This document shows positions 216 to 20,731 of a stretch of 21,380 nt of DNA, piece by piece; the stretch's first letter is position 1; every line of letters begins with the position of its first letter. Made by a program: the position numbers and the translations under genes. This DNA is from a virus, in the IMG/VR virus record IMGVR_UViG_3300027746_000110, positions 1 through 21,380 of that record; one strand, 5' to 3'. The notes under the pieces are model-generated. The model saw only the letters and a program-made list of their open reading frames with translations. It was not told the origin of the DNA and did no database searches.

Positions 216-300
216 GCCTGGGTGCTGGAATAGGTTTACAGAATTGACTTAAAATCAATCGGTCTTTATGACCATGTGGGTTCAAGTCCCACCCCAGGTA
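216..300 (+). tRNA. tRNA-Leu(UAA): tRNA-Leu, anticodon UAA (class II)
   Basis: The cloverleaf can be drawn by hand. The acceptor stem is GCCTGGG (216-222) with CCCAGGT (293-299), one G-U pair at the end, and discriminator A300. The short D stem is CTG (225-227) with CAG (239-241). The anticodon stem is ATTGA (243-247) with TCAAT (255-259), and the loop CTTAAAA (248-254) reads TAA at 34-36. The long variable arm GGTC/GACC (261-264/270-273) marks a class II tRNA. The T arm is GTGGG TTCAAGT CCCAC (276-292). Discriminator A and the variable arm both agree with leucine. The 3' CCA is not encoded, so it must be added by a nucleotidyltransferase. A UUA-reading tRNA suits the AT-rich codon use of the neighbours. 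Confidence 0.95.
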
Positions 301-315
301 TCTTTAGAAAACAGT

Positions 316-1071
316 ATGCGAACACCAGAAGAAATAAGTAAGATACGTGAATGCTGGCATAATCAGGTTAATCAATCTGAAGCATCACGTCTTCTTAATA
401 TATCTCGGGCTACAATCAGAGATTATTATAATCGTTTCTCCAATGGAGAGTTGCTGGAAACTAAACCAGTCTCTCTGTTGGAGATTTTGCTTTTAGATCA
501 ATCTAAGCAAGAAGCATATGCTTATCTTTTAGGATTATATCTTGGTGATGGTCATATAACAAAAACTAAATCATTGAAAAATGGAAATGAGGTATATAAA
601 TTCCGCATATTTCAAGATGCAAAATATATAAATCTTATACAGCTTTGTATTCATAAAATGAAAGCGGTTTTTGAAACTGAAATAAACATTTGCAACATGC
701 CTGGGTGCAAAGAAATAATATGTTATAAAAATAATATACCAGAGATATTTCCGCAACATGGACCTGGGAAGAAACACGAAAGAGAAATTGTTTTACGAAA
801 CTGGCAAAAAGAAATTATAACAGAATATCCGAAAGAATTTTTAAAAGGTCTTATTCATTCTGATGGATGTAGATATCTTTCAGCACCTAACAATTTAAAT
901 TCTGTCAAATATGAATTTAAAAATATGTCTTCTGATATTTTAGGATATTTTGATTGGGCATGTAGTTTAATAGATGTTGATACTCGGCGTCATTCTTGCG
1001 GTAAAGCTTCTATATTGAGAACAAAGAAAGATGTAGAGATATTTGAAAGTTTTATTGGACCGAAGAGTTGA
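316..1071 (+). CDS. LAGLIDADG homing endonuclease-like protein with N-terminal helix-turn-helix
   Basis: The 251-aa protein has two LAGLIDADG helices: YLLGLYLGDGHI at about residues 70-81 (acidic residue D78) and FLKGLIHSDGCR at about 175-186 (D183). It is therefore a single-chain, two-motif enzyme expected to cut a long asymmetric DNA site. Residues 3-40 (EEISKIRECW...NQSEASRLLNISRATIRDYY) form a helix-turn-helix that probably adds DNA specificity. The open frame extends upstream into the tRNA, so I chose the first ATG after the tRNA, at 316, 15 nt past its 3' end. No Shine-Dalgarno sequence is visible there. A hairpin terminator follows the stop. The gene is free-standing: the tRNA is intact and shows no intron. 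A regulator derived from a homing enzyme is an alternative. Confidence 0.85.
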   Translation: MRTPEEISKIRECWHNQVNQSEASRLLNISRATIRDYYNRFSNGELLETKPVSLLEILLLDQSKQEAYAYLLGLYLGDGHITKTKSLKNGNEVYKFRIFQDAKYINLIQLCIHKMKAVFETEINICNMPGCKEIICYKNNIPEIFPQHGPGKKHEREIVLRNWQKEIITEYPKEFLKGLIHSDGCRYLSAPNNLNSVKYEFKNMSSDILGYFDWACSLIDVDTRRHSCGKASILRTKKDVEIFESFIGPKS

Positions 1072-6033: not shown

Positions 6034-7272
6034 TTAAAAATTATCTTCTTTAAGAAAGAAATTGATTTTTTCAAAACTTTTAATATTTGAAGAACCAATG
6101 CTACATAGCTTATCAATAGCACCAAAAAAATCTTCATGAATATCCAGAATTAATCCATCATGTAATATAAACAATGGAATAATATGATTTTGATAATTCG
6201 CTTTATGAATCTTTTTTACTATATTAGTGAATCCTTGCATAGCCACATCTACTGCCGTTGATTGAATATAATAATTTAACAACACATAAGGTTTTGCACC
6301 TTCACAAGAAATCTTTCTTCCATAAAAGTTCTTTATGTATTTGCCATTGTTAGTATTAAATTCTTCTTTAAGTTTTTGCTTTAAAGTTTCAATACCAAAA
6401 TAATCTTTTATAATTGCAATTAATTCTTCTGGCTTTTTAACATGTCCAAGCAATTGTTTATGTAATGTTTCCTCATTGGCTCCATATAACTGAGATAATA
6501 AAGCAATTTTTACTATCTTCCTTGATATGTCCAAATTATATGTTGACATGAAATGCTGATATATGTCTTGCGGCAAATCGTTGTCTTGGCAATCCCTTGT
6601 TATTGATAAAAGTACTCTTGGTTCCAAAGAAGAGAAATCTAAATAAACAATTTTCCCTTCAGAACCAAACCTGGATGTTATAATATTTCTATATTCTTTT
6701 TTAAGAATTAAAATATTTGGACCTTCTTCAATTATTAAACGTCCAGTTGTTGAATTTATTCTTCCATATATTGGTTTTTTTGAGTAACCATTATTGGGAC
6801 TAAAACTTTTTAAAATCTCTTTTTGTGTTTGTTCTGTTCCAAGATAGTATTTTTTTTGTTGTTCCTCATCAATCGCAGTTGGCTGTAATGATTTAAATAA
6901 AAAATCATATGAATGAAATTGATTTAAGTATTCTTGATCTATCTTATCTATTTCGCTAGAAACTCTATGAATATAACTTTGCACTTCATTCTTGAAATCT
7001 TCTCTTTTTAAGAAATAAATCCAAGGTGTAGATGTGGCGTTATTCTTCTTGCCATTTAAAGTTTTATAGATGTTCAACCATTTATTAGAAGGAAATCCAA
7101 TTCTTTCTAAACAAAATAATTGATTTATTATCTTTATTTCTTCTTCATTTAAATAAAGATCTGAATTTATAACTTCATCATTGGAAATTTGATGAATGTT
7201 TTTGCCATCATAATGGACATCGTTAATTCTATTGCCAAATAGATTTCTGTCAAATATAATGGTGTGAGGCAT
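6034..7272 (-). CDS. Family A DNA polymerase, polymerase domain only
   Basis: The 412-aa protein carries the family A polymerase motifs. GRINSTTGRL...GPNILILKKEYR (170-195) precedes motif A, YLDFSSLEPRVL (210-221), with metal ligand D212 and steric-gate E217. Motif B is RKIVKIALLSQLYG (251-264), with R251, K255 and Y263. NYYIQSTAVD (333-342) follows, then motif C, FILHDGLILDI (368-378), with D372. Compared with E. coli Pol I, position 762 is Leu (L259) instead of Phe, and the Glu after the catalytic Asp of motif C is Gly (G373). There is no room for a 3'-5' or 5'-3' exonuclease domain, since full-length Pol I is about 928 aa, so proofreading must come from another protein. Rhodothermus phage RM378 is a known case of a split family A polymerase. 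The ribosome binding site is weak. Confidence 0.93.
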   Translation of the reverse strand: MPHTIIFDRNLFGNRINDVHYDGKNIHQISNDEVINSDLYLNEEEIKIINQLFCLERIGFPSNKWLNIYKTLNGKKNNATSTPWIYFLKREDFKNEVQSYIHRVSSEIDKIDQEYLNQFHSYDFLFKSLQPTAIDEEQQKKYYLGTEQTQKEILKSFSPNNGYSKKPIYGRINSTTGRLIIEEGPNILILKKEYRNIITSRFGSEGKIVYLDFSSLEPRVLLSITRDCQDNDLPQDIYQHFMSTYNLDISRKIVKIALLSQLYGANEETLHKQLLGHVKKPEELIAIIKDYFGIETLKQKLKEEFNTNNGKYIKNFYGRKISCEGAKPYVLLNYYIQSTAVDVAMQGFTNIVKKIHKANYQNHIIPLFILHDGLILDIHEDFFGAIDKLCSIGSSNIKSFEKINFFLKEDNF

Positions 7273-14273: not shown

Positions 14274-17200
14274 CTATGGCGGTGGACCTTTTACTAAATG
14301 TCCAGCTTTCTGCAAGCTAGTAGATAGTTCTTCAGAATCAAGAGTAACATTTACTTGAATATTGAAATTAATATTGCCATTAGAAATCTTATATTCTGTT
14401 GTTTTACCAAGAACAGTTTCAGATATAGATTTCAATGTAGCTGGAATTGTGATTGGATTCTTAGAGAAATTTTTCAATTGTTGGTCTATATCTGTAACAT
14501 TTTTCAACATTGCATTTAATGCTTTAGTCGAAGGAGCAAGGATAGTTGCCGGATCTAATTCTGAAGTATATTCTTGAATCTCAATTAATTTTGTCGTCAT
14601 CGATTCAAAAGATGTATGTATTCTGCCTACTTCATCATTAATTTTACTTATTGATCCCGCTGCTGCTTGTAAGCCTGTAACATCATATGTTTGAAATCCC
14701 ATCTGTATTCTTGTAATCATTCTCATGAAAGCATTTCCACCGGCAGTTACTCTTTCAGTAAGTCCGCTGAAATTTTTCAACAAACTACCAGTTGCTTGTA
14801 CTGAGCTAACTGCTGTTCCCATTTCATTGAAAGTAGTGCTTACTTGATTGAATATACTTGTAATACTTTCTAATTTACCTATTGTCTGTTGATTCTCAAA
14901 ATATGTTTTAAGCTCATTTACTTTAACTTGAATACCTTCAGGACCAGTCCATTTTCTAAAAATTACTCCAAATCCTTGCCTTGTTGCATTAAGATTTGTT
15001 TCTAAAATTTTAGGATTTACACTTGTCGTATTAATTGATGTAAAAATTTCTTTAACACTAGCAAAAATACCAGCTATATTTTGGAGTAATGTACGTAATT
15101 CTTCTCCAGTGCCACCAACAGCATCCTTTAACTCCTCGGATATGTTTCTTAAATCAGTCAATGGTCCTTCTAAACTTTCCCCGATGACTTCATTTATTGA
15201 AATAATTCTTGTTGATAATTCTCTTATTTGTGCCCGACTTGGTAACATTCTAGAAATAGCTCTAAGTTGTCTTGCTGTTGGAAGTTCTTGTACTTGTTCT
15301 AATAAACTACTTGATGTAGGTTCTTCTACAGTTGATGCTGCAACGGCTGGGGGAGTGTTTGCTGCTACTCGGGCTGCGGGAGCATTTGGCATACCACGAA
15401 CAGTAGTTTTTGGAACAGCTTCTTGTCCAAAAAGTGCATTCAAACCTTTTTCTAGATAACCACTAGCCTTGGATAAACTTTGAGTAAATGAATTACCTAC
15501 TTCAGCTCCAGCAGCAGTAGCCGCAGCAGCCAATCCAGTACCCACTAAGAATCCAGATAAGGGACTCCCTGGATTTCCTTTAATGAATTCATCCATACCT
15601 TTAGACATACCTTCTAACATTTGTCTGCCTAATGTGGTGAAAGTTGCAACTATTCCTCCACCAGCAGAAGCTGCTATTTCTGAATCTTCACCAAAAATAC
15701 TTTTTAACAACGATGTAAAGGCACCTGACAAGGAATCTCCTAAACCAACAGAATCAAATAAACTACCAAATGTGCCCCCTATGTCTGAAAATAAAACACC
15801 TAAAGATTCAAAAATGCCTGTTACCAAAGCACCACCTTTAGAACCTTCACCAAAAGCACCTAGCAATGCTTCTTTAAGAGTATTCCAAACATCAGTAGCT
15901 GTAGTAATAATTTGCTGTATTATACCAGGTTTATTTTGTTCTCCTGGAACAAACATTTCAGCAAATACCTTTTGGACTTCTACAATGCTTGCTTTTAAGA
16001 TGCCTAACATTCCAAAGATTAAAGCTTTTATAAAATTGCCTGCCCCCTTTAGAATTTTTGTAAATCCACCACCACTTGCTGAGAAGAATTTAGAGAATAT
16101 ATTTTGTATTCCTTGAATGAAATTTTGACCAGCAGCTTCAGGATTTATGTTTACATTTTTAAAGAAACTTTGTAGCACTTCTCTTACAGAGTTCATCATC
16201 GCACGCCAGCGTGCTGGTTGAAATATATCTGCCAAACCTCCAAATATTTCTTGTACGCCTGGAAAATATTTTACGAAATCTCTTCCGATACGAATACCTT
16301 CAGTAAATACGATTCTCATTACTTGTCGTATTTCCATCATGATAAGCCGGAATTCCCGTGACCGCATTATGCCTTTAGTAAAGCCCTCAAAGAATATTTG
16401 GAAGAATCCACCTTGCATTTGTTGTCCAGATTGCACCATTCGATCTATAGAATGTGACAATTCTTGCATTGCTTCTGTTTGTGATAATTGTTTTTTCTGT
16501 GCCGATTCAGATTGTTTTTGAACATCTGCATAAGATTTACTTTGATTCTTTAAAGAAAACCCTAATCTAACTGCTGATTCATCCATGTTTGTAGCAGAGA
16601 CTAAAGCAGCTATTTGCTGTCTGCTCATTGTTTCAACAGATTGTCCAGTAGCAAAGAATTGCTTACGCAGCGTTTCAAATCGTGCGGCTGGGTCTTGTTC
16701 TTTCATCATTTGCAATGCATCAACTTGTATACCGAATTGCTGTGCTAATGTTGCGGAATTTTTAGCAGCAGTTTCAAAGTTATCAAATCCTTCAACTACT
16801 CCAATAACGTTTTTAACTGTCAAACCAAGTTGACGCATATGTGCAGAAATGTTACCTAAAATTTGAGGAGAAATTCCACCAAAATTTTTCACATCTGCGA
16901 TCATTTCTCCTATATCACGACCTATTTGTCTCGCTGATGATCCGAATCGGTTTGCTAATCCAAGTGATACTTGTGCAATTTGTCTACCTTGTTCTTCCAA
17001 AGTGGTTCCAGTTGTAATCGCACGAAGACCTAAATTTCTCATTCCATCTTCTGAAAGATCAAAAACTTTTCTATAGGTTAAGAAATGTTCTGCCTGTCCT
17101 TCTAGTTGACTGCCTAATTGTGAAATGGTTGCTCCTAATTCATTAGAAGCTTTTAAAAATTCTTGCGCCATTTGACCACGGCTACCAAATACCCTTCGAA

Positions 17201-17795
17201 CGGTCAATCCAGTTTCTGCTAACATTCCATTGATATTTTTAACTGCTCCATATACTTGTCCACCAACTCCAGATCTTAAATCACCGAATGATTTTCTTAT
17301 ATCTTCAATAGCTTTTCTATATTCGTTAGAACCACCACCAGCTTGAGCTGTAGTAAATAAAGCATCTAAAGGAGCAAATACAAGATTTACTAATCCTTTA
17401 CCTATATTAAAAAGAGAACTAAATGATTGAGTTAACAATTGGAAAGTGGTTCCAAAAACATTTCCAAGCGCACCAAGATGTCCTTCAATTTCTTGAAAAA
17501 TATTTCCCATTTCTGTCATCATGGTACCAATGACTCCTCCGACCACTGGGATTTGACTCATGGATGATGCTAGAGTATTGAATGCAGAAGATGCGTATAA
17601 AGCACCAGCTCCAGCAGCACGACTTATTTCTGCTGGAATAAATGATTGTCCGTTTGGAGTTAATGCTTCTTTACCAGATGCAGCAGCGGCTGTTGGACTA
17701 AAACCAGCACTTCCAGTTGCTGTACTTCTAGATGAAGTATTTCTGTCAACAGAAGCAACAAGTCTATTAATTGCATTTATTAAATCTGGATCCAT
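14274..17795 (-). CDS. Tail tape measure protein (1173 aa)
   Basis: The length, the position two loci downstream of the tube gene, and the composition identify the tape measure protein: long helical, Gln/Ser/Ala-rich stretches broken by hydrophobic segments. Visible features are a polar N-terminus (MDPDLINAINRLVASVDRNT), hydrophobic Gly/Ala-rich stretches at about 80-150 (including VVGGVIGTMMTEMG), long helices through residues 200-500, and further hydrophobic stretches at about 590-760. In long-tailed phages this protein fills the tube and sets its length at roughly 1.5 angstroms per residue, which would give a tail near 175 nm (inference). No peptidase or muramidase motif is evident. The ATG is preceded only by weak ribosome-binding sequence (TAGTAG). 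A 107-bp, almost purely A/T leader separates it from the divergent DUF5872-like gene. Confidence 0.88.
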   Translation of the reverse strand: MDPDLINAINRLVASVDRNTSSRSTATGSAGFSPTAAAASGKEALTPNGQSFIPAEISRAAGAGALYASSAFNTLASSMSQIPVVGGVIGTMMTEMGNIFQEIEGHLGALGNVFGTTFQLLTQSFSSLFNIGKGLVNLVFAPLDALFTTAQAGGGSNEYRKAIEDIRKSFGDLRSGVGGQVYGAVKNINGMLAETGLTVRRVFGSRGQMAQEFLKASNELGATISQLGSQLEGQAEHFLTYRKVFDLSEDGMRNLGLRAITTGTTLEEQGRQIAQVSLGLANRFGSSARQIGRDIGEMIADVKNFGGISPQILGNISAHMRQLGLTVKNVIGVVEGFDNFETAAKNSATLAQQFGIQVDALQMMKEQDPAARFETLRKQFFATGQSVETMSRQQIAALVSATNMDESAVRLGFSLKNQSKSYADVQKQSESAQKKQLSQTEAMQELSHSIDRMVQSGQQMQGGFFQIFFEGFTKGIMRSREFRLIMMEIRQVMRIVFTEGIRIGRDFVKYFPGVQEIFGGLADIFQPARWRAMMNSVREVLQSFFKNVNINPEAAGQNFIQGIQNIFSKFFSASGGGFTKILKGAGNFIKALIFGMLGILKASIVEVQKVFAEMFVPGEQNKPGIIQQIITTATDVWNTLKEALLGAFGEGSKGGALVTGIFESLGVLFSDIGGTFGSLFDSVGLGDSLSGAFTSLLKSIFGEDSEIAASAGGGIVATFTTLGRQMLEGMSKGMDEFIKGNPGSPLSGFLVGTGLAAAATAAGAEVGNSFTQSLSKASGYLEKGLNALFGQEAVPKTTVRGMPNAPAARVAANTPPAVAASTVEEPTSSSLLEQVQELPTARQLRAISRMLPSRAQIRELSTRIISINEVIGESLEGPLTDLRNISEELKDAVGGTGEELRTLLQNIAGIFASVKEIFTSINTTSVNPKILETNLNATRQGFGVIFRKWTGPEGIQVKVNELKTYFENQQTIGKLESITSIFNQVSTTFNEMGTAVSSVQATGSLLKNFSGLTERVTAGGNAFMRMITRIQMGFQTYDVTGLQAAAGSISKINDEVGRIHTSFESMTTKLIEIQEYTSELDPATILAPSTKALNAMLKNVTDIDQQLKNFSKNPITIPATLKSISETVLGKTTEYKISNGNINFNIQVNVTLDSEELSTSLQKAGHLVKGPPP

Positions 17796-17902: not shown

Positions 17903-17905
17903 ATG

Positions 17906-18391
17906 ATGAGTAAAGAAAAATTAAAATTATTTATTGAATCAGTTGTTGCTGAAGAATTGGCTGCTGAAGCTGATTTGGAAGGTACTATCAAAGATGTTTT
18001 AGTACAGCTTTTTGATTCATTTATAGAATTAGATGGAATTGAAGATATTAATGAAATAGAAAATGTAATAGTTAATCATTTATTCTCTTTGCCACAATTT
18101 AAAGATGGTCTTCAAGCCGCCGCAGAAGAATTGGTAAGAAATTTAAATGAAGCAAAATATCATGGCAGGACAGTTACTCTAAATAAACGTATGAAAGGAG
18201 ATGTTAAAAAAAGTAAAGTTTATGTTAAAGATCCAAAGACCGGTAACATTAAAAAGGTAAACTTTGGTGATCCAAACATGAGAATTAAAAAAAGCAATCC
18301 AAAACGTAGAAAATCTTTTAGAGCCAGACATAATTGTGAAAATCCAGGTCCAAAAACAAAAGCTCGTTATTGGTCTTGCAAAGCTTGGTGA
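17906..18391 (+). CDS. DUF5872-like phage protein, function unknown
   Basis: The C-terminal 60 residues carry the highly conserved DUF5872 pattern: KVYVKDPKTGNIKKVNFGDP, then RRKSFRARHNCENPGPKTKA and RYWSCKAW at the end. It is strongly basic, with two cysteines (HNC and WSC), and is found in many phages without a known role. Residues 1-95 form an acidic helical domain with EELAAEADLEGTIKDVLVQL. Two ATGs are adjacent, at 17903 and 17906. GGAG lies 2 nt from the first and 5 nt from the second, so the second is preferred (161 aa). It is the first gene of a plus-strand pair with the Nudix gene, 3 nt apart, inside a minus-strand tail operon. A structural or packaged DNA-binding protein would fit the basic tail, but this is inference. 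Confidence 0.8.
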   Translation: MSKEKLKLFIESVVAEELAAEADLEGTIKDVLVQLFDSFIELDGIEDINEIENVIVNHLFSLPQFKDGLQAAAEELVRNLNEAKYHGRTVTLNKRMKGDVKKSKVYVKDPKTGNIKKVNFGDPNMRIKKSNPKRRKSFRARHNCENPGPKTKARYWSCKAW

Positions 18392-18394
18392 TTC

Positions 18395-18931
18395 ATGAAA
18401 AAAATATCAGAAAAAATTCTTAACTTACATCATCCAAAAAGTGGATATAAAAAAACCATTAAAGTAAAAAAATATAAAGCACCAGATGGTAATTTAATAA
18501 CATCCTATGTTGATGCTGGAATGCAGGATTCTGTTCAAATATTTGCTTTAACAGAAAATAACAATGTTATAATTGTTAAACAGTATCGTCCTGGTTCTGA
18601 GAAAGAAGAGATTGAACTTCCTGGTGGAAGAATTGATGAAGGTGAATCAAAAGAAAAAGCTGCTCATAGAGAACTTAAGGAAGAAACTGGATATACAACA
18701 GATAAACTATTTTATCTTGGCAGCAAAACATATTCTCCTTATTCAGAAGGAAGAATCTATTTCTTTGTCGCCCTAAATTGCTCTAAAACCGACAATCTCA
18801 AGTTAGATAGAGACGAGTATCTATCAGCACATGAAATGCCTTTAAAAGCCTACAGGGAGCTTATGAAGAAGTCTAACACTCGTGGTGTTGATTGTGCCTA
18901 TATGGCTTTAGATAATCTTGATATGCTTTGA
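18395..18931 (+). CDS. Nudix hydrolase, ADP-ribose pyrophosphatase-like
   Basis: The 178-aa protein has a complete Nudix box, G-x5-E-x7-REUxEExGU, at residues 78-100. The metal-binding REL..EE core is at 92-97 (HRELKEETGY). The N-terminal strand pattern (VDAGMQDSVQIFAL, VIIVKQYRPG) and a proline 16 residues after the final box glycine (P115 in YSP) match the ADP-ribose pyrophosphatase subgroup. That subgroup cleaves ADP-ribose or similar nucleoside diphosphate sugars to AMP and a phosphosugar. The substrate remains unproven. The gene starts 3 nt after the DUF5872-like gene, without a clear own ribosome binding site, so it is probably coupled to it. It ends at a bidirectional terminator. A role in NAD or ADP-ribose turnover during infection is inferred from the family. 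Confidence 0.9.
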   Translation: MKKISEKILNLHHPKSGYKKTIKVKKYKAPDGNLITSYVDAGMQDSVQIFALTENNNVIIVKQYRPGSEKEEIELPGGRIDEGESKEKAAHRELKEETGYTTDKLFYLGSKTYSPYSEGRIYFFVALNCSKTDNLKLDRDEYLSAHEMPLKAYRELMKKSNTRGVDCAYMALDNLDML

Positions 18932-18948: not shown

Positions 18949-18980
18949 AAAAAAGCCCAGATAAATTCTGGGCTTTTTTT
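18949..18980. terminator. Bidirectional terminator between Nudix gene and tail chaperone-like ORF
   Basis: AAAAAAGCCCAG (18949-18960), a 7-nt loop, and CTGGGCTTTTTTT (18968-18980) form a symmetric terminator working on both strands. It stops the plus-strand cassette and the minus-strand transcript of the gp26-like/104-codon pair, so that the tape measure gene downstream needs its own promoter. Confidence 0.93.
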
Positions 18981-18982
18981 AT

Positions 18983-19297
18983 TCAGGTAAATCTTCTTAA
19001 TCTTGCAGGAGATTCAGGTCTATGCCTTCCAAGAAGTGCTCTGGTTTGAGCATCATTATGATGAGTACCTTTTGTTAATTCGTTACCGTTATCTTTACCT
19101 TTTTCAATTTCTTTCTTTATTCGTTCTATTAGCCATCTTTTATATGTTACAGGGAAATCGTAATAATCCTGCCATGTCATGCCAAAATAATAACCTAATA
19201 AAAAAAATGGCTCTAATAGAACTTGTTCTTTACTTTCTGGAGTTAGGCCAAAAAAACGTAGATCCCATCGGAAGGGCACCCTCCTCTGTATGATCAC
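18983..19297 (-). CDS. Small tail protein ORF overlapping the gp26-like gene; probably expressed by frameshifting
   Basis: The 104-codon frame is open from a GTG at 19297. Recognisable protein starts at FFGLTPESKEQVLLEPFFLL (residues 15-34), followed by GMTWQDYYDFPVTYKRWLIE. This matches the short phage family with a FFGLTPE... beginning and a WD..Y..P...R hallmark, found next to gp26-like genes. The first 14 residues look like antisense-free readthrough of the overlapping frame and not like protein of this family. No good independent start exists: GTG at 19297 has no ribosome binding site, and GTG at 19279 directly abuts AGGAGG (zero spacing). The next Met lies inside the conserved part. A +1 frameshift at the T7 run (19256-19250) would join FF of the gp26-like protein to GLTPE. 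The protein would be a T/gp51-like tail assembly factor. Confidence 0.75.
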   Translation of the reverse strand: MIIQRRVPFRWDLRFFGLTPESKEQVLLEPFFLLGYYFGMTWQDYYDFPVTYKRWLIERIKKEIEKGKDNGNELTKGTHHNDAQTRALLGRHRPESPARLRRFT

Positions 19298-20114
19298 AAT
19301 TTCTGCAATTAAAAGTAACGCTCATATGAACGCCAGGTTCATGATCTTCAATATACTTTCTTAGCTCTAGTGAATCTCTAGCTGGCATATAATTAACAAG
19401 CTTAGAAATAAGTCCTCTTTCACGATTACCATCAATTTCTACAATAGAATTAAGAAGTCTGGTTGTTACAACGTTTTCTGTAACAATTCCTTTCTTTTTT
19501 CTCATTTCCATTTGTTGAGCAATTTCTTCTTCTTCTTTACCAGTCAAGAATTTAAAGCCAACTGTTTTATTTGAGACAGGCAATTTAAATCTAAATAAAT
19601 TTTCACCAGCATTGGCTGGTTCTAAATCTAGTGGTTTAATTGGTAATTCAGTTAAATCAAATTCAATTTCATTTTTAAATTCACAACTTGGGCAATTCCA
19701 GTTAGCTGCATATTCTCTTCCATAACCAGAGATTCTTACTGCAATCATAAGTGCATTTCTGTCACCAGTTAATAAAGAACCGACATCAACTGCTGGATTT
19801 ATTAAACAAGCTTTTATTAATTCAGAAATAACAGTGCCTTTTTTAATAAGAGCACGAGACATGAGAATATCTTCATCTCTTGCCGTCATAGCTCTATATT
19901 CTATCTGTGTTGCATTGTGTAATGGATGTTCTAATCCATATACTTTACCGGCTGATGGAAGCGGAACAGCATCGATTGGAATTTCTATTCCTAGTTCTCT
20001 TTTAGCATATTCTTCTCTAGAGACTACAGGAACTCCATTACTATTTGAACTCATAGCTGCTTGCTGTGCAGCAAAGATTGAATTTCTTAATTCTCGATTG
20101 TCATTTTCAGACAT
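19230..20114 (-). CDS. T4 gp26-like (PF12322) protein with zinc motif; candidate tail assembly chaperone
   Basis: The 294-aa protein shows the pattern of the T4 baseplate gp26 family: VPLPSAGKVYG (50-60), YRAMTARDEDILMS (73-86), then LLTGDRNALMIAVRISGYG (114-132). CPSC (141-144) and CRNC (270-273) form a split four-cysteine zinc site. The C-terminus FFWPNSRK matches the FFWP ending usual for the family. T4 gp26 is shorter and acts in baseplate hub assembly. AGGAGAAG precedes the ATG at good distance. The gene lies between the tube gene and the tape measure gene, which is where tail assembly chaperones sit in other phages, and its 3' end overlaps a small ORF by 68 nt in the +1 frame. The tube terminator upstream implies an own promoter in 20115-20180, which I could not define. 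Confidence 0.85.
   Translation of the reverse strand: MSENDNRELRNSIFAAQQAAMSSNSNGVPVVSREEYAKRELGIEIPIDAVPLPSAGKVYGLEHPLHNATQIEYRAMTARDEDILMSRALIKKGTVISELIKACLINPAVDVGSLLTGDRNALMIAVRISGYGREYAANWNCPSCEFKNEIEFDLTELPIKPLDLEPANAGENLFRFKLPVSNKTVGFKFLTGKEEEEIAQQMEMRKKKGIVTENVVTTRLLNSIVEIDGNRERGLISKLVNYMPARDSLELRKYIEDHEPGVHMSVTFNCRNCDHTEEGALPMGSTFFWPNSRK
19250..19256 (-). other. Candidate +1 programmed frameshift site (T7 run)
   Basis: On the coding (minus) strand the zero frame reads ACG TTT TTT TGG. A +1 slip lets both Phe tRNAs re-pair perfectly (TTT to TTT) and continues as GGC CTA ACT, giving ...STFF-GLTPE. A -2 slip with only the P-site tRNA re-pairing would give FFF-GLTPE. The joined product would be about 376 aa: 288 residues of the gp26-like protein plus 88 of the small ORF. 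AGGAGG lies 23 nt upstream, too far to be a standard stimulator. Confidence 0.6.
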
Positions 20115-20179: not shown

Positions 20180-20215
20180 ATAAAAAATAAGCCGCTTAGT
20201 TATAAGCGGCTTATT
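20180..20215 (-). terminator. Strong terminator after the tail tube gene
   Basis: AATAAGCCGCTTA (20186-20198) and TAAGCGGCTTATT (20203-20215) form a perfect 13-bp stem with a 4-nt loop. On the minus strand it is followed by TTTTTTATAC. It lies 25 bp after the tube stop codon and would isolate the highly expressed tube transcript from the genes downstream. Confidence 0.9.
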
Positions 20216-20239: not shown

Positions 20240-20731
20240 TCAGTATTGAAGTACAGCGTTATCGTATTTTAAAGTAAGTTGGATTTCTGTCATATCAGCA
20301 TCGCTTGAATAATCTAGATCACTGAATGTTGCTTTTTCTACGAACGCACCTTTGATATCCCAAAGTTGAACTACTGTACCAACTGGGTCTAACATTTTAA
20401 TTTGAATATCACGTTTATAGAAATCTGCATAACCACCACGACCAGAAACGCTTTCAAAACAGGAACGAACCCATTCCATTACTTGTTGAGCGCCGGATGG
20501 AGCAATTGGATCATGCAATGTTACATCGATAGATTCAAATTTTGTTTTTCCTGCTAAGTAACGTGTGCTGTTAATCCATGGTACTTCAATTGTTGAAGTT
20601 GAAGTAGAAGGACGTTTGCCTGATTTTACTAAAAATGAATCGATACCTTCAATTGCAAATACGAATCTACGTTTTTGCAATGGTTCAAACTTGGTTGGTA
20701 ACATGTCTGTTACTGATAATGTCTCTGCCAT
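20240..20731 (-). CDS. Tail tube protein, T4 gp19-like
   Basis: The 163-aa length equals that of T4 gp19. Family patterns are visible: KRRFVFAIEGIDSFLVKSG (21-39) early; FESIDVTLHDPIAPSGAQQV followed by WVRSCF in the middle; then YADFYKRDIQIKMLDPVGTV, WDIKGAFVEKATFSDLDYSS and a C-terminal EIQLTLKYDNAVLQY. This protein stacks as hexamers to make the inner tube through which DNA passes. AAGGGA precedes the ATG by about 9 nt. A dedicated terminator follows. A contractile-tail sheath gene would be expected further upstream on this strand, outside the window. Confidence 0.93.
   Translation of the reverse strand: MAETLSVTDMLPTKFEPLQKRRFVFAIEGIDSFLVKSGKRPSTSTSTIEVPWINSTRYLAGKTKFESIDVTLHDPIAPSGAQQVMEWVRSCFESVSGRGGYADFYKRDIQIKMLDPVGTVVQLWDIKGAFVEKATFSDLDYSSDADMTEIQLTLKYDNAVLQY

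Follow-up and report, generated by a model that had tools for sequence, protein, structure and literature searches.

A predicted +1 programmed frameshift that would extend a tail assembly chaperone of the gp26/gp51 type

Why does a gene of the T4 gp26/gp51 family (PF12322) run, at its 3′ end, into a small open reading frame (ORF) that lacks a convincing start? The question arises in a 21,380-nucleotide (nt) stretch of virus DNA (IMG/VR record IMGVR_UViG_3300027746_000110, positions 1 to 21,380; hereafter the window), in which the two ORFs overlap on the minus strand in frames that differ by +1. Judged from sequence, a +1 programmed frameshift very probably joins them, the product being the extended member of a tail assembly chaperone (TAC) pair of the gp26/gp51 type. 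Three features define the site:

20114..19230, minus strand: PF12322 (T4 gp26/gp51-like) ORF of 294 amino acids (aa), read as the short form, TAC-N or 'G'
19250..19256, minus strand: slip site TTT TTT T(GG); a YTT codon followed by T is found here in 79/79 non-redundant loci
18983..19249, minus strand, +1 frame: 'T' extension GLTPESKEQ...RRFT, 88 aa after FF, with a conserved core and fewer nonsynonymous than synonymous differences per site (pN below pS)

The Pfam T4_baseplate profile (PF12322) matches the 294-aa ORF with an E value of 1.6e-19, covering profile positions 13-219 of 219 and scoring 71 bits against the Pfam gathering cut-off of 24.5 that we used to define membership; the ORF also matches phrog_150, 'baseplate hub' (E 4.4e-24). 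Its C-terminus reads ...GSTFFWPNSRK*, encoded by ACG TTT TTT TGG CCT AAC TCC AGA AAG TAA, with the frame-0 stop at 19232-19230 (-). Within the seven-T run at 19256-19250 (-), the P-site Phe codon is TTT 19253-19251 and the A-site codon TGG 19250-19248, and a move of one base forward re-pairs TTT to TTT. Past the second TTT, the +1 frame continues GGC CTA ACT CCA GAA AGT AAA GAA CAA... and remains open (FFGLT...) down to a stop at 18983, giving a fusion product of 376 aa by predicted translation. The minus-strand reading bears out the original prediction in its particulars: a gp26-like gene ending FF-WPNSRK, a +1 frame reading FF-GLTPESKEQ, TTT codons shared between them and a fusion of about 376 aa.

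The small ORF gave no match to named phages by tblastn and none to Pfam in a profile search; its PHROG matches are weak and unnamed (phrog_30750, E 0.0011), and it carries no curated family name. Because tblastn with the small ORF gave nothing, relatives were sought through the N-terminal domain. An alignment of 21 proteins contained no stretch conserved enough for a scan of the collection, so closer relatives were used: ten found with the protein itself and 80 loci found with the short pattern [RK][AYF][ML]TAx[ED]ED, for which at least 594 relatives exist. Since this pattern sits about 75 residues into the protein, far from the slip site, the sampling is independent of that site. The tabulated set, mostly IMG/VR loci, comprises 87 loci, the window, MelJY01 and immuto among them, or 79 once near-duplicates are removed.

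At every one of the 79 non-redundant loci, with identity down to about 33%, a YTT codon followed by T occupies the slip position (76 YTT TGG, 3 TTT TAC). All 87 tabulated loci encode FF or FL and then W or Y; the P-site codon is TTT in 77/87 and CTT in 10/87, never TTC or another Leu codon, and the A-site codon is TGG in 84/87 and TAC in 3/87. Under each locus's own codon usage, the probability that all P-site codons would be YTT is ~10^-18 on the assumption that the 87 loci are independent, which their relatedness violates. The run itself varies, reading TTTTTTT in 72/87 loci, TTTCTTT in ten and TTCTTTT in five; where the sequence is TTTCTTTGG (ten loci) or TTCTTTTGG (five), T runs reach at most 3 or 4. 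The invariant element is YTT, then T, then GG (AC in three loci), not the seven-T run. Conservation among relatives, which the original prediction had proposed to check, therefore holds for the slip site, the overlap and the relative frame (79/79) but not for the run. We dismiss a local assembly error or chance because an independent contig (L001) is identical, a 95% relative (L002) retains the T run and all 79 loci conserve the site.

In every tabulated locus the +1 frame reads on past the frame-0 stop, and the 83 complete extensions, which span 59-92 aa, share the core FFGL..EY....E..F.L.YYG......YNLP...R.WF..RL. For the stretch of the extension past that stop, all 16 pairs examined have a lower pN than pS, mostly several fold, as in the gp26-like gene (0.05 versus 0.51 for the window and L002; 0.17 versus 0.68 for the window and L026). 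The +1 extension is under purifying selection. Starts are another matter: between the upstream stop and the 15th codon beyond the slip, the +1 frame holds no ATG, GTG or TTG in 33/87 loci and no ATG in 69/87. For L007 and its near-duplicates, the +1 frame is closed by a stop some 8 codons ahead of the slip and no start follows. The remark that the small ORF has no convincing start was well founded, and the conserved slip site, overlap and frame support the proposal that a +1 frameshift joins it to the gp26-like protein.

Upstream of the slip codon, a base bias at -4, a GGAGG motif and a hairpin are selected at synonymous sites. The latter two correspond in the window to:

19280..19284, minus strand: Shine-Dalgarno (SD)-like GGAGG, 26 nt 5′ of the P-site codon
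19264..19284, minus strand: upstream hairpin region, assessed by synonymous-codon randomisation and pair counts

The base at -4 is T in 5/79 loci against 34.3 expected, and C or G in 70/79. A T at this position would create the -1 heptamer T_TTT_TTT, and relatives that carry the extension in the -1 frame do have T there; its shortage argues that backward slips are disfavoured. GGAGG occurs between -36 and -16 in 50/79 loci compared with 27/1734 control windows, starting mostly at -31 or -25; in most cases it precedes the slip codon by 20 or 26 nt. Correspondingly, GAG is favoured over GAA by 33:7 at -30 and 22:0 at -24, against a background of 613:1082. The region from -27 to -3 folds more stably than synonymous-codon versions of itself (mean z-score -1.80, with 46% of loci ranking among the best 5%), whereas shifted controls give z of -0.09 to -0.34 with 1-6% in the best 5%; taking the mean across 51 sequence clusters gives z -1.52 (Wilcoxon P 1.5e-7). 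Strong stems end at -9 to -4 in 36/39 cases. Their register varies among groups, and within registers some two-sided changes are seen, in small sets that moderately exceed shuffle controls; because these covariation sets are small, the claim of a hairpin rests on the synonymous-codon test. With the hairpin folded, the SD-like motif would lie mostly 5-9 nt from the slip codon (spread 1-16), distances taken from minimum-energy folds of short stretches and uncertain to that extent. The locus thus combines a conserved re-pairing P-site codon with a selected context, as a +1 frameshift site should.

How might these elements work together? Most ribosomes would stop at TAA 19232-19230 and yield the 294-aa TAC-N, the counterpart of lambda gpG and T4 gp26. 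In a minority, peptidyl-tRNA-Phe on TTT 19253-19251, with TGG waiting in the A site, would slip one base forward; in relatives with CTT, the P-site Leu tRNA would move one base onto TTT. The slipped ribosomes would then read GGC CTA ACT... and produce the 376-aa TAC-NC, which corresponds to lambda gpGT and T4 gp51. On the lambda model, the N part would hold the tape measure protein and the extension would recruit tube subunits. We infer the slippage itself, its rate and these binding partners; the gene order, the overlap, the conserved slip codon, the open and selected +1 frame and the want of a conserved start can be read from the sequence. The GGAGG before the slip codon presumably contributes, in that a hairpin refolding just behind the ribosome and preceded by GGAGG may favour forward over backward slipping. 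The chances that the hairpin and SD-like motif act as a composite +1 stimulator seem to us about even. The broader proposal, that many PF12322 phages use a natural composite +1 signal of SD-like GGAGG, refolding hairpin and YUU_UGG in which the hairpin sets GGAGG ~5-9 nt from the slip codon, is likewise evenly balanced. Newly recognised here is the selection at synonymous sites for the hairpin, for the GGAGG before it and against T at -4.

Several observations weigh against this account. Where prfB has a stop in the A site, the window has the sense codon UGG, so what would make the ribosome pause is not obvious. Unless the hairpin folds, the SD-like motif is 20-26 nt distant, and the window's own hairpin is weak, formed either by a GGAGGG/CTTCC-type stem or by CCC 19276-19274 with GGG 19266-19264; it ranks at 0.11-0.22 among synonymous versions, and hairpins are stronger in the relatives L003, L004, L005, L026 and L028. 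A downstream stimulatory structure, sought at +6 to +102, showed no clear excess stability (mean z near control). The extension is co-linear with the C-terminus of T4 gp51 but weakly similar to it (a single hhalign comparison gave E 0.004 with a probability of 8%), and a hidden Markov model of the extension compared with T4 gp51 was not significant. Finally, a -2 slip would reach the same frame.

This last alternative, a slip of the kind seen in phage Mu that would add one residue, is one that the frame alone cannot separate from +1, and the U-rich codons would permit some re-pairing. We disfavour it and consider it improbable: the C or G at -4 in 70/79 loci would keep the penultimate tRNA from re-pairing after a -2 move, YTT-T matches the +1 sites of prfB type, and in vitro a hairpin upstream of the site blocks slips backward and assists those forward (PMC6321510). 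A change of frame could also arise in transcription, if RNA polymerase slipped on the T7 run and made mRNAs one base shorter or two longer. The seven T (TTT TTT T) of the window and most of its relatives (72/87) would suit such a switch, yet the +1 frame is kept by the fifteen loci reading TTTCTTTGG or TTCTTTTGG, with their runs of 3 or 4, and by the BRock group, which has TTTC only. The bias moreover follows codon phase (P-site YTT), which fits translation, and polymerase slippage is to our mind scarcely credible.

The small ORF might instead be a separate, translationally coupled gene starting at GTG 19297, at a nearer GTG or at an ATG 24 codons in, the T run being incidental. The window's +1 frame does hold GTG codons, 15 and 9 codons upstream of the slip, annotators have called a TTG-started ORF in MelJY01 and short downstream ORFs in SP-15, immuto and Alone3, and LR756511-like loci, whose extension is in the -1 frame, conserve an in-frame ATG. 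A start is not conserved among the window's relatives, however, with none at all in the 33/87 loci noted above. Relatives in which the small ORF had its own ribosome-binding site and start had been named as grounds for refuting the frameshift; a +1-frame start falls 4-12 nt after the SD-like motif in only 8/79 loci. GGAGG as a start signal for the small ORF was rejected on the same count. A separate gene also leaves the invariant YTT-T codon bias and the avoidance of T at -4 unexplained, and we regard it as highly unlikely.

The surroundings of the locus indicate what the two products might be. Its principal neighbours in the window are:

20240..20731, minus strand: tail tube protein (gp19-like; PF06841 E 8.6e-10, phrog_4542 E 1e-30)
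14274..17795, minus strand: tape measure protein of 1173 aa (phrog_1272, tail length tape measure, E 3.2e-8)

The tube gene lies directly upstream of the PF12322 ORF, and the tape measure gene is the next large gene on the minus strand downstream of the chaperone ORFs. Among relatives, a tube-like ORF lies upstream in 68/77 and a large ORF downstream in 51/55 loci. The window pair stands between tube and tape measure despite two intervening genes on the plus strand (17903-18931, a phrog_7595 protein and a Nudix hydrolase, between the extension and the tape measure gene), which run opposite to the tail-gene direction. T4 gp26 and gp51 both match PF12322 (8.8e-64 and 3.9e-52), and gp51 consists of a gp26-like domain with about 48 extra residues. 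The locus is most likely the TAC pair of a T4-related contractile-tailed phage. Because the pair lies between tube and tape measure, has an N-domain model that may resemble TACs and shares its family with T4 gp26/gp51, it is also most likely that family's G/GT pair; on sequence it shows the overlapping frames for a short and an extended form and the conserved slip site of such a pair. The original prediction had noted a likeness to tail chaperone frameshifts, which holds and which we amend to this identity. Terminator-like hairpins follow the tube gene (20186-20215, minus strand) and the extension (18949-18979, minus strand). SP-15 has an annotated terminator after its tube gene, in the same place as the window's; such a terminator could reduce chaperone expression relative to tube.

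A structural model of the fusion (mean predicted local distance difference test score, pLDDT, 87) provides supporting evidence, not proof, that the predicted N-terminal domain resembles TAC-type structures best. VIA-align placed YqbN (3klu, Z 6.4), which we take to be a chaperone-type protein of a prophage-like element, first and the HK97 tail assembly chaperone (2ob9, Z 5.7) second, with the next at 4.3. Both align to residues 36-136, and by VIA-align's own notes a Z below 8 can reflect a common arrangement. Foldseek of the fusion model against the PDB found nothing significant, and a search for solved structures by sequence gave no match.

Among the closest known systems is lambda G/GT, whose tail assembly chaperone frameshift was reportedly described by Xu, Hendrix and Duda in 2004. 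As in lambda (reviewed in PMC5009743), one gene between tube and tape measure would give a short and a frameshift-extended form; in contrast, the window would slip +1 on YTT-T rather than -1 on a heptamer, belongs to PF12322 without a sequence match to solved TACs, and its short form, at 294 aa, is longer. According to PMC5009743, G-T frameshifts are widespread among long-tailed phages, with T4 the exception, and the shift of the archaeal myovirus HSTV-2 is very probably +1. T4 gp26 and gp51 share PF12322 with the window gene but are separate genes for the two forms, in place of one gene and a frameshift. Some T4-like phages encode a short TAC and a long fusion in two separate genes and dispense with a frameshift, according to a passage in the PRFect paper that cites Vladimirov et al. 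2022 (PMC10885494). The TACs of T4-like phages are attributed to Vladimirov, Gautam and Davidson 2022 in passages of both PMC10885494 and PMC12846349, and to the extent of that attribution the prior identification lowers the novelty below what had first been hoped. A -1 site, GTTTTT, occurs in other myovirus TAC genes (PMC12846349). The TAC genes of phage Adele (Vandenendeviridae/Andersonviridae) likewise have an extension usually annotated as a separate gene (PMC12846349), but use a -1 shift and another slip geometry. An internal-start product, 26′, also exists for T4 gene 26 (L025 7803-8429, minus strand).

At the slip site itself, the closest likeness is to prfB (release factor 2), where CUU_UGA likewise has YUU in the P site followed by U, with +1 re-pairing; ten relatives carry CUU_UGG C, one base from CUU_UGA C. 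The prfB site has UGA in the A site and an internal SD 3 nt before the slip codon. Here the A-site codon is the sense codon UGG (UAC in three loci), and GGAGG lies mostly 20 or 26 nt away with a hairpin between. A refolding hairpin adjacent to the E site has been shown, with E. coli 70S ribosomes, to stimulate +1 slipping on CUUUGA about 60% as strongly as an internal SD and to attenuate -1 slipping on A6G (PMC6321510). That hairpin too lies just 5′ of the slip site but belongs to a designed construct. A natural arrangement is found in T4, where a hairpin at the gene 26-25 junction brings the SD of gene 25 from 27 to 11 nt (PMC3014915). The split sites of T4 genes 25 and 38 have the same order of SD, hairpin and site, and that of gene 25 lies at the end of the PF12322 gene 26, overlapping the FF codons in the T4 sequence; they differ in serving initiation and in that the hairpin spans the FF codons. 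That a PF12322 gene ends in a split site could be coincidental.

The original prediction had raised the question of a +1 frameshift in gp26-family genes at large. At 24-39% identity, the +1 layout is present in nine phages (LR756508, MelJY01, immuto, GXN1, SP-15, LIS04, RM378, BRock and Alone3), with the BRock-group loci predicted to shift on TTT-C in 13/13 read. It does not extend to the jumbo phages 121Q (and L107/L108), PA5oct and LR756511 (and L110, L112), where the extension is in the -1 frame and each carries the canonical heptamer T_TTT_TTC at the FF codons. Protein scans with 121Q, SP-15 and LR756511 gave 1-3 relatives each. An in-frame ATG is also conserved in the LR756511 group, where the extension might be initiated independently. 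A PF12322 extension in the -1 frame on T_TTT_TTC was noted in L022 (3700-3711), L023, L016, L107, L110 and L112. The predicted frameshift direction switches within one chaperone family, and the two chaperone forms would arise in three ways: by +1 frameshift, by -1 frameshift or from two genes.

If correct, this assignment would supply both a function and the missing half for a gene labelled 'baseplate hub' in databases, and would explain short ORFs that are hypothetical or unannotated in SP-15, immuto, RM378, BRock and others; several relatives have the second domain misannotated. It would also tie T4 gp26/gp51 to the lambda-type chaperone scheme by way of a family whose frame and mechanism vary but whose two-form output persists. 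Should the hairpin work as proposed, these phages would offer a natural bacterial system, with many variants, for mRNA structure pushing the ribosome forward, a counterpart in elongation of both the designed upstream-hairpin stimulator and the T4 split ribosome-binding site.

Elsewhere in the window, 6034-7272 (minus strand) encodes a short, 412-aa family A DNA polymerase-like protein of which only the polymerase part is matched. At 216-300 (plus strand), a tRNA-Leu(taa) gene overlaps the start of a helix-turn-helix/LAGLIDADG-like ORF (268-1071, plus strand), possibly a homing endonuclease beside a tRNA gene.
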